Source of the DNA: Acidobacteriota bacterium
GTDB lineage: Bacteria; Acidobacteriota; Vicinamibacteria; Vicinamibacterales; CAVVIG01
Length of the DNA stretch: 64,000 nucleotides
Direction of reading: 5' to 3'
NCBI GenBank assembly: GCA_003222395.1
Contig: QHWB01000030.1
Location: forward strand, 110,221-174,220
A program made the position numbers and the translations under genes. Below the pieces are notes generated by a model. That model saw nothing but the letters and a program-made list of their open reading frames with translations, was not told the origin of the DNA and searched no databases. Of the stretch, positions 27,169 to 34,762 are shown piece by piece (position 1 is the first letter of the stretch; the number at the start of each line of letters is the position of its first letter).

Positions 27169-27546
27169 TCATTTCGGCGGCTGGTGCAGCGCGACGAGGT
27201 TTCCGTCGGAATCCTCGAAGTGCGCGATCGATCCGTAGTCGCCGCTCGCCTTCGGCAGCACGACCTTGCCGCCGGCGCGCTCGACGCTCGCGAGCGCGGC
27301 GTCGATCTCAGGCACCGTGAAATAGACGAGGGTGCCTGTTTTCGACGGCGTGCGTCCCGGCCCCTGCACGAGCATGCCGTTTGCGCCGGACCCCCCAGGC
27401 TGGCCGGTGAACCAGGCCATCTTCATCGGTCCCTGTTCCATCGGCTTCAGCGTCACGCCGAGCGCCCGTTGATAGAAGGCCGTCGCCCGCGCGATATCGT
27501 TGACCGGAATCTCGAACCAATCCACGGGATTGATCGCATCGCTCAT
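27169..27546 (-). CDS. VOC-superfamily protein (glyoxalase-like)
   Basis: 125 aa single VOC module pair: VDWFEIPVNDIARATAFYQRALGVT, then MKMAWFTGQPG, GTLVYFTVPEIDAALASVERAGGKV and GSIAHFEDSDGNLVALHQP. These are the predicted enzyme class II family features, including the metal-ligand Glu-like FEDSDGN end. Substrate unknown. Not overlapping its neighbours. Confidence 0.8.
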   Translation of the reverse strand: MSDAINPVDWFEIPVNDIARATAFYQRALGVTLKPMEQGPMKMAWFTGQPGGSGANGMLVQGPGRTPSKTGTLVYFTVPEIDAALASVERAGGKVVLPKASGDYGSIAHFEDSDGNLVALHQPPK

Positions 27547-27646: not shown

Positions 27647-28573
27647 CTACGAGTCGGAGCCTGATTGACGGAACAGCAGCGGGACGAGCTGCGAGCCGGC
27701 GCCCGTCGCGATGAATACGGCCTTGTTGTTCGATGCGAGCCTTGCCACCCAGTCGAATGCGCCGCCGTCGATGAGTGGCACGTCGACACCATCGGTGGAC
27801 CGCGCGGCGATTTGAAACCGCAGTCCGTCGTAGTACTGATGATCGAGGACGCCGCGAGCGATCCGCGGCCGTCCGACTTTTTCCGCGATGCGGTCGCCGA
27901 GCGCCGCCTTGGCCTCCGATGCCAGCACGGTGATGCGCTTTTCCGGAAACGCGAAGCCGTGCCGTTCGAGACGCTCCAGCGCGTCGATCATGACCGAGAT
28001 CTGCTCGGCGATCGCTCCCACCACGAACGCGTGATTCCCGCGCTCCACGCCGGCGCCGGCGAGACAGAACATGCGGAAATGCGCCGTGAACCCGCGTACC
28101 TTGGGAATCTCCTGCGCGCGAACGCACCGATGCGACGTCGCGAGGCGGACGACCGCCTGCGGGTCGCGGCGAAGGCGGCGCGCACACTCCAGCGCCATGA
28201 CGTTGGTCGGATCGGCGACGACTTCCGTGCCGCGCAGCGCCGAAAGCACTTTGTTCTGACTCGCGCGCCCCATCGATGAGCAGACGCCGAGCGGCGCGAC
28301 CGGCGACAGCTCAATCGATTCGAAGGCCGACGCCGCGTCGAGCAGATGGCGATCGACCTCCAGCTGCGCCCGCTGATCGACGGCGGCCAGGCCCACGAAC
28401 CGATCGCGATCCCACTGCTCCATCAACGACGCCGGCCGCCGCGCGGCGGCGCGCGCGTCGACGACTTCGAGGAGCAGCGACCAGAGGCGCGAGGCCGGCA
28501 GCTCGCGGGTCAGCGCCTCGTATGCGCCGGACGGCAAACCGGCTGTGATCCATGTCCGTTCCGATACCGACAT
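27647..28573 (-). CDS. HisS/HisZ-like class II aminoacyl-tRNA-synthetase-fold protein
   Basis: 308 aa, not assigned to a known family with certainty. Segment PTNVMALECARRLRRDPQAVVRLATSHRCVRAQ, with HFRMFCLAGAGVE about 15 residues on, resembles motif 2 of the HisRS/HisZ core. The C-terminal DHQYYDGLRFQI and IDGGAFDWVARL resemble its YYTG..F and GGRYD..L segments. There is no anticodon-binding domain, and the motif-3 Arg is not evident. It could be a HisZ-like regulatory paralogue or a stand-alone synthetase-like enzyme. Start at ATG 28573, next to a repeat pair. Confidence 0.45.
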   Translation of the reverse strand: MSVSERTWITAGLPSGAYEALTRELPASRLWSLLLEVVDARAAARRPASLMEQWDRDRFVGLAAVDQRAQLEVDRHLLDAASAFESIELSPVAPLGVCSSMGRASQNKVLSALRGTEVVADPTNVMALECARRLRRDPQAVVRLATSHRCVRAQEIPKVRGFTAHFRMFCLAGAGVERGNHAFVVGAIAEQISVMIDALERLERHGFAFPEKRITVLASEAKAALGDRIAEKVGRPRIARGVLDHQYYDGLRFQIAARSTDGVDVPLIDGGAFDWVARLASNNKAVFIATGAGSQLVPLLFRQSGSDS

Positions 28574-28584
28574 ACTCGCCTGAA

Positions 28585-28647
28585 GCGTCGCGCAGCCCTT
28601 CAGGGCTGCCGAAAGGCGCCGGACGCAGACCTGAAGGCCTGCGCTAC
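28585..28647. repeat. inverted pair of dispersed palindromes
   Basis: CGCAGCCCTTCAGGGCTGC (28591-28609) and GCAGACCTGAAGGCCTGCGC (from 28625) flank a 15-bp centre. The xylulokinase stop codon (28644-28646) lies in the second copy. Confidence 0.7.
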
Positions 28648-30230
28648 ATCGCCCGCGCCGGTCCGCGGCCGAGCGCGTGCGCTTCGCACGCCGCATGCAC
28701 GCTCATGAGCTCCTGGTAGATCGCATGGCGCGACGGATCCGGCTGGACCGGATCGACCGTCGCCGCCACGTTTCGCACGATGTCGTCCCACGAGACATCA
28801 TCGCCGGCAGCGACCGCGTGCGCGTGCCGCGCGCGGAGCGCCGCGCCGAGGCATGCCGAATTTCCAACGGCGAATCGATGCACCTCCGCGCCGAACACAT
28901 CGGCCATCACCTGCAGGATCTCGCGGTTCGCGGCCGCGCCGCCGGTCGCGCGGATGTCGTCGAACTCCACGCCCATCCATTTCGAATGACGCGCGATCGA
29001 CAGCATCTGTCCTTCCACCACCCCGCGCACGTGGCCAGGTCCATCGTCCTCCGCCAGACCGTAGCGGCGCGCCCCCGCGACGAGCACCGGCGGCGTGATT
29101 TCGGGATCGAACCACGGCAGAAGCACGCGTCCATTGTTGCCCGGCGGCGTCGCGGCGAGCGCCTGCGAGAAGCCGCTCCACGTGAGGCCGAACATGTCGC
29201 GGACGCGCTCGCGCGCGAGCGAACCGTTCGCAAAACATGTCAGCCCCATGTAGTCGCCGGTCGGCGCGCCGAACACGTGTCCGGTGAGCGTCGGATCGAT
29301 CCGGGGCGCGCGCATGAGCCCGAAGATCGTGTCGCTCGTGCCCAGTGAAATCGCCGCGACCCCTTCGCGCACGAGGCCCGTCCCGATCAGGCTGCACGGG
29401 TTGTCGCCGGACCACGACACGACCCGCGCCGGCGGCAAACGATGACGCCGTTGCCAGTACCGCGAGAGCGTGCCGGCGATCGTCCACGACGGCGCGATTC
29501 GCGGCAGCTTGCGCCCGAGCGACGGCGAGGTCGCCTCGAGCGCGGCCGGCCACCACTGCGCCGTGGCGAGATCCATCAGATTGGTGCCGGACGCGTCGCC
29601 AGGATCGATCGGCGCGTCGTGCCCGGCGAGCAGCGATGCCAGAAACGAGCTGACGAGATGAATTCGAGCGGTCGCCGCGTATGCCGCCGGATCCGTTTTG
29701 AAAAACTTTCTGATTTGCGGTCCCGTGAACCGCTCGAACGCGCGCGAGCCGGTACGCTCGGCGAGCGTCGTCGATCCGCCGAGCGCGGCCGTGAGCTCCG
29801 CGCACTCGGCCGACGTGCTCGAGTCCATCCAGATCGGGGCGACCAGCCGCGACAGCGCCGGTGCGAGCTGCGCGCCCGGGCGATGGGCGGGATCGAGCTG
29901 CGCGAGCAATGAAGCGGCATTCGCGTTGAAGTACACGCTGCCGTGCTGCTGAGCGGAGCCGGCAATCGCTTCGAGCCGCTGCAGGTCCAGACCGCTCGCC
30001 GCGATTCGAGCCATCATCACGTCCAGCGCGTCCGCCCACAGCGGCGGCGACGAGACGGCTACCGACGGTTCACTCCGTGGCAGCACGCCGTGCCGCGTGC
30101 CGTACTGCGGCAGGGCGTCGTCGAATTGCAGCGACGATTCAAAGACGGCCTCCGTCCGATTGCCGTCGACGTCGAGAACGATCGCCGTCAGGCTTTGCGT
30201 GCTGGAATCGAGGCCGAGATAGAGGCTCAC
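28644..30230 (-). CDS. FGGY-family carbohydrate kinase, probable xylulokinase
   Basis: 528 aa. ATP-dependent sugar kinase, most likely D-xylulose to xylulose-5-phosphate because xylose isomerase is nearby in the same direction. The N-domain begins MSLYLGLDSSTQSLTAIVLD. Substrate-region motifs are GSAQQHGSVYF and the DASGTNLMDL metal loop. The ATP-binding C-domain has VAISLGTSDTIFG and IRATGGAAANREILQVMADVFG, with GNSACLGAAL. GTG start at 30230 overlaps the ThuA-like gene's stop (GTGA). The C-terminus ends in repeat-derived sequence. Confidence 0.8.
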   Translation of the reverse strand: MSLYLGLDSSTQSLTAIVLDVDGNRTEAVFESSLQFDDALPQYGTRHGVLPRSEPSVAVSSPPLWADALDVMMARIAASGLDLQRLEAIAGSAQQHGSVYFNANAASLLAQLDPAHRPGAQLAPALSRLVAPIWMDSSTSAECAELTAALGGSTTLAERTGSRAFERFTGPQIRKFFKTDPAAYAATARIHLVSSFLASLLAGHDAPIDPGDASGTNLMDLATAQWWPAALEATSPSLGRKLPRIAPSWTIAGTLSRYWQRRHRLPPARVVSWSGDNPCSLIGTGLVREGVAAISLGTSDTIFGLMRAPRIDPTLTGHVFGAPTGDYMGLTCFANGSLARERVRDMFGLTWSGFSQALAATPPGNNGRVLLPWFDPEITPPVLVAGARRYGLAEDDGPGHVRGVVEGQMLSIARHSKWMGVEFDDIRATGGAAANREILQVMADVFGAEVHRFAVGNSACLGAALRARHAHAVAAGDDVSWDDIVRNVAATVDPVQPDPSRHAIYQELMSVHAACEAHALGRGPARAM

Positions 30231-32472: not shown

Positions 32473-33234
32473 ATGGGCAAACGATTGCAGAATCTAACAG
32501 AATTAATCGGCGTTGTCGTTGTCCTTCAGGCCGCCTCGCCGCAGCCTCGGTCGCCCGAGCAGCTGCAGGCGGGGCAACGCGCCTTCGCCGCACAGTGCGG
32601 CTTCTGTCACGGACGCGACGCGATGGGCGGCGAGACCGGTCCGAACCTGACGCGCTCGGCGATCGTCGCCGACGACGTCGGCGGAGACAAGATCGGTCCC
32701 GTCATCCGCGACGGCCGCGCCGACAAGGGGATGCCGCCGTTTCGACTGAGCGACGCCGACCTCGCGGCGATCGTCGCGTTCATCCACGATCAGAAGATCA
32801 AATCGGAGTCGCCGGGCGCGCGACGGTCGGTGAACGCCGCGGATCTTCAAACGGGCAACGCCGACGCCGGCCGACAGTACTTCAACGGCGCCGGCCGCTG
32901 CGCGACGTGCCACTCGCCCACCGGCGATCTCGCCGGCGTCGCGAAGCGGCTGCAGGGACTGGAGCTGCTGCAGCGGATGCTGTATCCGTCGAGAGCGCGC
33001 GGCGCGACGGTCGCGGTGAGATTGCCATCGGGCGAATTGGTCGCCGGCGCGCTTGCCTATCGCGACGAGTTCACCGTCGCGCTCACCGACGCGGAAGGAC
33101 GATACCGATCGTGGCCGGCCGGTCGGGTGACGTTCACCGTCGACAACCCGCTCGAGGCGCACGCCGATCAGCTTGGAAGGTACACCGATGACGACATGCA
33201 CAACGTCCTGGCGTATCTGCAGACGCTCCGTTAG
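32473..33234 (+). CDS. di-heme c-type cytochrome
   Basis: 253 aa exported cytochrome. A short hydrophobic leader (about 1-20) is followed by two heme sites: CGFCH near residue 42 with distal Met in KGMPPF, and CATCH near 143. The region after the second site has a beta-rich insert ending [16 protein letters not shown]. It overlaps the PQQ dehydrogenase gene by 47 nt in another frame, and so probably takes electrons from that enzyme in the periplasm. Confidence 0.82.
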
Positions 33235-34762
33235 CGCCGCGCTGCAGCGATGCGCGGCGTGGGCCCTCTCGTCGCTCGCTATCGTCGGCGTCCTCGCGGC
33301 GCAGGACGCAAAGGACAGCTGGACGACGTACCACGGCGATTACAGCGGCCGCCGTCACAGCAGCCTCACGCAGATGACGCCTGCGAACGTTCATCAGCTC
33401 ACGCTGGCATGGGCGTTCGCGACCGGCCAGACGCAGTCGATCAAGGCGACGCCGATCCTCGCCAACGGCGTCATCTACATTTCGGCGCCCGATCACGCGT
33501 GGGCGATCGACGCGCGGTCGGCGCATCAGCTGTGGCACTACACGTATCCGGCCAACGAAGGCTTCCACATTGGCCACCGCGGAATGGCGATCTACAACGA
33601 CTCGGTCTTCCTGACCACGCCCGACTCGCATCTGATCGCGCTCGACGCGAAGGACGGCAAGGTGAAGTGGAACGTCACGATTGCCGATGCGAAGAAGGGC
33701 TACTGGTCGACGAACGCGCCGCTGCTGATTCGCGATCACCTGCTCGTCGGCGTCTCCGGCGACTTCGACAATCTGCCGGGCATCCTCACGTCGGTCGATC
33801 CGGAGACTGGAAAAACGCAGTGGACGTTCTACAGCACGCCGCCGCCGGGCACTGCGGGCAATCCGAGCGACGGCGCCACCGGCGGTCAGATGTGGATGAC
33901 CGGCACCTACGATCCCGAATCGAACCTCCTGTTCGTCGGCACCGGCAACCCCACGCCGGTTCTGAACGGTCCGGTGCGCGCCGGCGACAATCGGTGGACC
34001 GACAGCATCCTCGCGCTCAATCCGGATACGGGCAGGCTCGCGTGGGGATTTCAGGCGACGCGCCACGACACGCACGACTGGGACGCGGCCGAAGTGCCGG
34101 TTCTCGTCGACGGCTCGTTCAACGGAACGCCAGCGAAGCTGCTGATGCAGGCATCGCGGAACGGCTACTTCTACGTGCTCGATCGCACGACGGGACGCAG
34201 CCTGCTGACGACGACGTTCGCGACGGCCAACTGGGCGACGGGGATCGATCAGGACGGGCGTCCGATTCCGAATCCCGCGAAGGAACCGGCGCGGGACGGA
34301 CGTCTGGTCGCGCCCGACGAGAGCGGCGGCACGAACTATCGATCGCCGAGCTTCGATCCGAAGACTGGCGTGCTCGTCGTCAGCGCCCACGACGCGTACG
34401 GCATTTATTTCTTCCGATCGGATCACGGCGCGTACGGGTGGGCAGGCGCCGACTATGGCGTGTTCGGCAAGAGCATCCTGCGGGCGATCGATTATCAGAC
34501 CGGCAAAATTCGCTGGAGCCACGACCTCGGCGAAGGCGCCTCGGCCGCTGGCGTGCTCACGACCGAATCGGGCCTGACGTTCACCGGCGACACCGCCGGC
34601 AACGTCATCGCGCTTCGCACGAGCGACGGCGCGACGCTGTGGCACTCCGGCATCGGCCGCGTCGGCAACTCGCCGATCACGTACGAGCTCGACGGCCGTC
34701 AGTACATGCTCGTTGCCGGTGGGGCGTCGTTATACGCGTTTGCGCTTCCGGAGCATCGATAG
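33188..34762 (+). CDS. PQQ-dependent dehydrogenase (quinoprotein alcohol/sugar dehydrogenase-like)
   Basis: 524 aa. A signal peptide (about 1-38, ending VLAAQ) precedes an eight-bladed propeller: WTTYHGDYSGRRHSSLTQMTPANVHQL, then blades with tryptophan-docking repeats such as AIDARSAHQLWHY, ALDAKDGKVKWN, SVDPETGKTQW and ALNPDTGRLAWGFQ. ATRHDTHDWD is the catalytic-site region of quinoprotein ADHs. No vicinal CC disulfide is seen. Acts in the periplasm with the upstream cytochrome; alcohol or sugar substrate unknown. Confidence 0.82.
   Translation: MTTCTTSWRICRRSVSAALQRCAAWALSSLAIVGVLAAQDAKDSWTTYHGDYSGRRHSSLTQMTPANVHQLTLAWAFATGQTQSIKATPILANGVIYISAPDHAWAIDARSAHQLWHYTYPANEGFHIGHRGMAIYNDSVFLTTPDSHLIALDAKDGKVKWNVTIADAKKGYWSTNAPLLIRDHLLVGVSGDFDNLPGILTSVDPETGKTQWTFYSTPPPGTAGNPSDGATGGQMWMTGTYDPESNLLFVGTGNPTPVLNGPVRAGDNRWTDSILALNPDTGRLAWGFQATRHDTHDWDAAEVPVLVDGSFNGTPAKLLMQASRNGYFYVLDRTTGRSLLTTTFATANWATGIDQDGRPIPNPAKEPARDGRLVAPDESGGTNYRSPSFDPKTGVLVVSAHDAYGIYFFRSDHGAYGWAGADYGVFGKSILRAIDYQTGKIRWSHDLGEGASAAGVLTTESGLTFTGDTAGNVIALRTSDGATLWHSGIGRVGNSPITYELDGRQYMLVAGGASLYAFALPEHR

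Follow-up and report, generated by a model that had tools for sequence, protein, structure and literature searches.

The window, by which we mean the whole analyzed stretch of 64,000 nucleotides from an Acidobacteriota bacterium, carries on its minus strand, at 27647 to 28573, an ORF of 308 amino acids. It is near certain that this ORF encodes a stand-alone protein with a HisRS-like core, belonging to a family without a name, and ORF, tblastn, structure model, alignment, and tree together place it in clade B of that family. The gene stands in a same-strand run comprising a xylose isomerase, a ThuA-like protein, an FGGY kinase, the HisRS-like gene, a VOC protein, and ABC transporters. Directly upstream lies the FGGY kinase, of xylulokinase type by Pfam and NCBIfam (28644..30230, minus strand), which bears out the description of the next gene as a sugar kinase in an earlier note on this DNA; it is not found beside family members elsewhere. 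The downstream neighbor is a VOC/glyoxalase-fold protein by Pfam (27169..27546, minus strand). Elsewhere in the window, an ORF at 33173-34762 that by eye resembles a PQQ-type dehydrogenase lies beside a cytochrome-c-like ORF (32473-33234). The reading frame of the HisRS-like gene stays open upstream to 28696, and a start at 28573 is plausible because the N terminus aligns with the start of the nearest relative (W[IV]TA in Minicystis). The 308-aa protein matched no Pfam or NCBIfam family at a limit of E 10 (most matches above about 0.1 being dropped) and gave no sensible match to PDB sequences (best E, 0.31).

A tblastn-backed scan of genome contigs recovered 14 loci, from Minicystis rosea (Myxococcota), from Steroidobacter, Peristeroidobacter, and other gammaproteobacterial bins (Pseudomonadota), one each from Armatimonadota, Nostoc (Cyanobacteriota), Planctomycetota, and Calditrichota, and two from Chloroflexota. 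Profile searches found 1 to 9 carriers per sample of 219 to 301 genomes, counts that include the center genome of each sample, picked because it carries the gene. The gene was present in 2 of 297 genomes of the window's phylum, 2 of 292 in the Nostoc phylum (one more match was judged false), 3 of 301 in the phylum of the Chloroflexota locus L013 (four further matches being true HisRS), and, as an intact gene, 3 of 246, plus two broken pieces, in the phylum of locus L012. The phylum of Minicystis yielded 9 carriers among 235 genomes, one with the gene in two pieces on two contigs, and the class of Peristeroidobacter 1 among 219, i.e., the center genome alone. The Cyanobacteriota match in genome G634 (E, 2e-4) was dropped, being by eye an unrelated 225-aa frame. 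A search of the window genome and 59 of its relatives with this one protein as query found the gene in the window genome alone. The gene is thus rare and patchy in bacteria, and since the tree also sets the window protein among proteins of Myxococcota and Pseudomonadota, lateral transfer is suggested. The suspicion that this might be a new branch of synthetase-fold proteins fits both fold and family, the branch being rare and yet extending beyond the window genome.

One member is borne by the Chroococcidiopsis plasmid pCHRO.01, which is predicted to be conjugative; there (L020:3606-8919) the gene is accompanied by DUF1579, GFA, VOC, and YciI genes and by a sigma factor. Nostoc sp. FACHB-973 (G342) holds two similar copies (L034:2-904 and L035:8847-9800; 274 of 294 aligned residues identical), one of them cut by a contig end. 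Viral contigs searched with the family alignment A1 gave 15 candidate stretches, none of them confirmed, and phage records searched with the Nostoc protein gave no relative. A fold search of viral predictions returned giant-virus and other synthetases, the best being a Hokovirus HisRS (E, 3.7e-7), which repeats the fold and nothing further; with no viral relative found, a viral origin was set aside. A link to defense genes was likewise discarded, as 1 of 31 members matched the PADLOC defense models, once, at an E value of 0.0058 that we put down to chance.

Alignment A3 comprises 31 members from at least seven phyla, the window protein and 30 relatives; G1315, whose gene is split between two contigs, and the broken pieces of G1170 and G953 were left out. 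Twelve proteins ending their motif-3 region in Gln-Leu form one clade with support of 100/99 (clade B: the proteins of the window and of Minicystis, seven from Pseudomonadota, and three found in the Myxococcota sample). The remaining 19 form clade A, in which all 18 that reach motif 3 have Glu/Asp-Arg; the tree is midpoint-rooted, and clade A may be a grade on it. Among five clade-B Steroidobacteraceae genes, dN/dS was 0.09 to 0.14 in seven of the ten possible pairs (dS, 0.84 to 1.24 in six and 0.31 in one), and three clade-A pairs gave 0.10 to 0.27. These clade-B ratios indicate that the gene is under selection and that purifying selection followed the change in motif 3, and together with the 14 relatives found by tblastn they argue that the ORF did not arise by chance. 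A reading as a decaying pseudogene or spurious ORF could appeal to the fact that dN/dS was measured among relatives, the window gene having none close enough, and that the family does decay in places, as a G1170 remnant with an internal deletion indicates; it is nevertheless hardly credible in view of the intact frame, the aligned relatives, the low ratios, and a GC3 of 0.825, against 0.834 in the adjoining xylulokinase-like gene (xylB). The G1170 remnant (L049:382-1632 on G1170:C130) is a single open frame in which profile positions 5-36 run almost directly into 270-311, with the middle of the protein missing and the motif-3 end retained.

Structure prediction, which the earlier note had proposed as a check against HisZ and HisRS, came out in favor of this kinship, with HisRS and HisZ chains as the top matches of the models of both the window protein and a clade-A relative. 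The window protein model (AlphaFold, 15 sequences) has a pLDDT of 74.8 and a pTM of 0.72, with residues 92-116 under 50; its best Foldseek match in the PDB is HisRS (E, 1.1e-9), and VIA-align gives Z 19.1 for HisRS 4rdx (213 residues, 3.5 Å) and Z 18.8 for HisZ 7z6r. The model of the clade-A relative L013 (AlphaFold, 25 sequences; pLDDT, 88.9; pTM, 0.85) scores Z 23.4 with HisZ 7z6r (233 residues, 2.6 Å) and Z 23.1 with HisRS 1kmn (242 residues, 2.6 Å), and Foldseek pairs it with HisRS 1kmm (E, 1.3e-12). Judging from these models, HisRS and HisZ are tied as the nearest folds, and a predicted class II core of HisRS/HisZ type is near certain. The class II core is surer than the kinship to HisRS in particular, since ThrRS, too, scores Z 20.2 with the L013 model, about 3 Z below HisRS and HisZ, and as ThrRS is thus among the matches of that model the kinship leans on sequence evidence. 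The matched ranges mostly begin at residues 44-64 of the window model and 47-55 of the L013 model, one Gcn2 match that starts at residue 11 of the window model being the exception. Residues 1-46 (28436..28573, minus strand), a helical stretch ahead of the synthetase core with low model confidence, are thus left uncovered by almost every structure match listed.

The motif-2-like, YY, and GG segments from which a class II synthetase core had originally been proposed are indeed present, with key residues conserved in all 31 members. P91, P94, Q106, R114, E117, R152, H165, F166, Y248, D269, G271, and W275 are identical throughout, P91 and P94 belonging to FESIELSPVAPL (residues 84-95; 28289..28324, minus strand), which on our own reading is motif-1-like. 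In the segment EVVADPTNV (residues 117-125; 28199..28225, minus strand), D121 and T123 are each found in 30 of 31 members, and our own alignment would place this D-x-T at the loop of HisRS Glu83. Residue names of E. coli HisRS, including those of the active-site Gln127 and Glu131, follow the accessible part of PMC8558854. The motif-2-like segment SHRCVRAQ...HFRMF (residues 147-169; 28067..28135, minus strand) contains the invariant R152 and H165, and in a low-confidence part of the hhalign alignment R152-x-Q154 lines up with the Arg-x-acid of HisRS motif 2. HQYYDGLRF (residues 245-253, with YYDGLRF at 247-253; 27815..27841, minus strand) is the counterpart of HisRS RGLxYY. Residue 245, two before YY, is Arg in 16 of the 19 clade-A proteins and in none of the 12 of clade B (His in the window protein); the equivalence of this Arg is uncertain because the HisRS Arg sits four residues before YY. 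DGGAFDW (residues 269-275; 27749..27769, minus strand), with D269, G271, and W275 invariant, corresponds to HisRS GGRYD.

A degenerate motif 3, ATGAGSQL (residues 289-296; 27686..27709, minus strand), reads Gln-Leu in clade B and Glu/Asp-Arg in clade A, residue 296 being Leu in 12 of 12 clade-B proteins and Arg in 18 of 18 clade-A proteins that reach this point. The statement that motif 3 is missing therefore holds for the window's clade but not for the family, as clade A keeps motifs of the GxER type. The protein ends 12 residues past this place, which leaves no room for an anticodon domain, also in keeping with what had been noted. At the columns that our own reading aligns with Gln127 and Glu131, which have a role in histidine binding in HisRS, the family has L/V/A/S/M and G/A/V, with Gln or Glu in 0 of 31 members. 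The stretch that begins at the motif-2 Phe and runs to the first YY Tyr measures 78 residues in the window protein versus 154 in the HisRS of the same genome. The predicted architecture is thus one of about 46 residues of N-terminal helices followed by a core of HisRS type in which the part between motif 2 and YY is shortened, without an anticodon-binding domain.

By profile, as by fold (tied with HisZ), HisRS (TIGR00442/PF13393) is the nearest known system. It shares with the family the class II core, the motif-2-like Arg, the YY and GG segments, and, in clade A, motif 3. In contrast to HisRS, which has an anticodon-binding domain, the window protein lacks one, and it has Leu for the motif-3 Arg, a shorter span from motif 2 to YY, and extra N-terminal helices; on our own alignment the family would also have no counterpart of Gln127 and Glu131. 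The cut-offs of the HisRS family models were reached by none of the 31 members. Six matched PF13393 at E 1 or better (best, 0.0041), and the best value with TIGR00442 was 0.21, both below cut-off, the window protein giving no match to either model. In 301 Chloroflexota genomes, the next matches of the family profile were the C-terminal core of four HisRS proteins (E, 3.3e-5 to 8.0e-4; 1.4e-6 to 4.1e-5 in a smaller search set). All four, which were dropped from the family counts, have hisS as their best NCBIfam model, above cut-off in three and a cut piece in the fourth. Using hhalign, the 31-member alignment A3 matched 12 HisRS sequences over 65 C-terminal columns (E, 1.1e-5; probability, 82%), pairing DGGFTDW of the family with GGGRYDG of HisRS and GSER with GLER (GxER); an earlier 19-member alignment against nine HisRS sequences gave 19% and E 0.0013 over the same C-terminal stretch. 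The N-terminal half was never aligned confidently to HisRS by hhalign, and a global run gave no useful alignment. These comparisons suggest a modest profile link to HisRS.

A single PF13393 match occurs in the window genome, to a HisRS of 449 aa that includes its anticodon domain, and of 15 other carrier genomes 13 have a match over the cut-off and two have none. An ordinary HisRS is thus usually present alongside the family. HisZ is a paralogue of HisRS whose partner is the short-form HisG; long-form HisG needs no HisZ. We observe that the sole HisG match in the window genome lies on another contig and carries a HisG_C domain, i.e., it is long-form, which confirms the earlier remark that no short HisG is nearby and answers its suggestion that the genome be checked for one. 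Even though the family shares the fold and has a similar length, with structural Z scores as high for HisZ as for HisRS, a role as HisZ, the regulatory subunit of short HisG, is consequently very improbable, and the hisZ model TIGR00443 matched 1 of 31 members at an E value of 0.26; we reject this candidate. The accessible parts of two papers describe HisZ as a HisRS paralogue without adenylation (PMC9437257, PMC10795190). Another synthetase-related protein that is likewise unexplained is SrmL (NF051887, a PheS-related mystery ligase; model length, 349), whose model, at E 1 or better, matched 1 of 31 members, the divergent L033, in the motif-3 region (E, 0.023; 13.8 bits versus a cut-off of 300), with no match in the other 30. 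PoxA/EpmA is a synthetase-like protein with an acceptor other than tRNA, and its LysRS-like core is not among the 50 structure entries listed for both models, which does not exclude likeness. AsnA and aa:CP ligases, described as synthetase-like proteins of this kind in the accessible part of PMC9437257, are also missing from the structure matches listed. Among the matches listed in a search of open-licence papers, we found no paper on a HisRS-like family such as this one.

We favor, at a probability of roughly 0.42, a joint reading in which the family neither charges tRNA nor binds histidine in the manner of HisRS, clade A being an adenylating ligase and clade B a non-adenylating ligand binder. 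Clade A, with the motif-2-like segment and the motif-3 Arg kept, would use ATP to activate an amino-acid-like carboxylate and then hand it to a small molecule or a protein. Clade B, with motif 2 and the loop that putatively holds an alpha-amino group kept and the motif-3 Arg lost, would still bind an amino-acid-like ligand without forming an adenylate, as HisZ does, and could act as a sensor, a regulatory subunit, or the catalyst of a reaction needing no adenylate. An amino-acid-like ligand is suggested by the retention of motif 2 and the conserved D-x-T loop, and histidine appears unlikely given the absent counterparts of Gln127 and Glu131, if our own alignment is right. Ordinary tRNA charging is unlikely without an anticodon domain. 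The presence of motif 3 makes an adenylating ligase likely for clade A, a judgment from motifs only, and its loss, with HisZ as precedent, makes a non-adenylating binder more likely for clade B, although one lost Arg is not proof that ATP use is lost.

Alternatively, clade B might still act as a ligase that depends on ATP, at a remodeled nucleotide site, and join an amino acid to a small molecule by an amide or ester bond. We consider this somewhat unlikely: R152, Q154, H165, D269, and W275 are no less conserved in clade B than in clade A, and small-molecule enzymes (VOC, GNAT, GGACT, SnoaL, and RibD_C) occur among hand-picked neighbors, but motif-3 Glu-Arg has become Gln-Leu, and the Arg before YY is absent, in 12 of 12 proteins. 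Of 20 neighbors picked by hand from other loci for a Pfam scan, 17 matched, which in addition to the five just named comprise a Tyr phosphatase, deoxyribosyltransferase-like, adenosine deaminase-like, CBS, PTH2 (twice), response regulator, cupin, trehalose phosphatase, VWA, alpha/beta hydrolase, and TetR families. Apart from VOC, no window neighbor is found beside the relatives, and VOC, a very common family, lies within two genes of a family member in three lineages (the window, Chroococcidiopsis, and G1232). In a BLAST comparison of the window region and loci L002-L015, the flanks that match one another, among the matches listed, are those of Steroidobacteraceae loci, a case of ordinary synteny. 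Outside the Steroidobacteraceae, the matches are the gene itself and a scatter of isolated pairs that belong to large families (TetR-type regulator, ABC ATPase, response regulator, and a few others). The TetR-type regulators lie one or two genes downstream in two Chloroflexota loci (L013:8185-8853 and L014:4358-4969; 29% identity), with Pfam TetR_N shown for L014 only. Neighbor lists of more loci gave no common partner (no target gene was called in L062, L065, L067, and L074). As no neighbor recurs widely, neither a pathway nor an evident target of regulation emerges, and the attempt to derive a pathway from conserved neighbors was dropped.

The most unusual neighbor is PTH2, the archaeal/eukaryotic type of peptidyl-tRNA hydrolase, an association that we regard as a lead only. 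Its genes adjoin the family gene in L009 (5865-6206, minus strand) and lie three genes off in Minicystis (L002:5806-6147, plus strand), in two phyla. PTH2 is present in 5 of 12 clade-B genomes, one of which (G1416) has a doubtful two-piece match with a stop; none of 16 clade-A genomes, 32 background genomes, or 218 further genomes of the Peristeroidobacter class has it. Large genomes predominate among the carriers, two of which are closely related, so these counts are not independent. Such a distribution could speak for tRNA-linked work, in which the ends of aminoacyl- or peptidyl-tRNA are handled together with a PTH2-type hydrolase. However, no PTH2 was found in the window genome, the gene is not beside the family member in the other three PTH2-bearing genomes, and the protein lacks an anticodon domain, so we judge this reading improbable. 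A broader picture, of a synthetase-paralogue family with a tRNA-free ligase for an amino-acid-like substrate in clade A and, in clade B, a selected ligand sensor with adenylation switched off that moves between phyla and in some lineages accompanies PTH2, seems to us rather unlikely as a whole.

Synthetase paralogues have repeatedly become enzymes and regulators with new chemistry. For HisRS, the accessible part of one review has a table in which HisZ is the sole paralogue function given (PMC9437257). The family described here would be a second HisRS-like stand-alone line besides HisZ, and because it has the ATP motif preserved in one clade (A) and lost in the other (B), it would make the gain and loss of adenylation directly testable.
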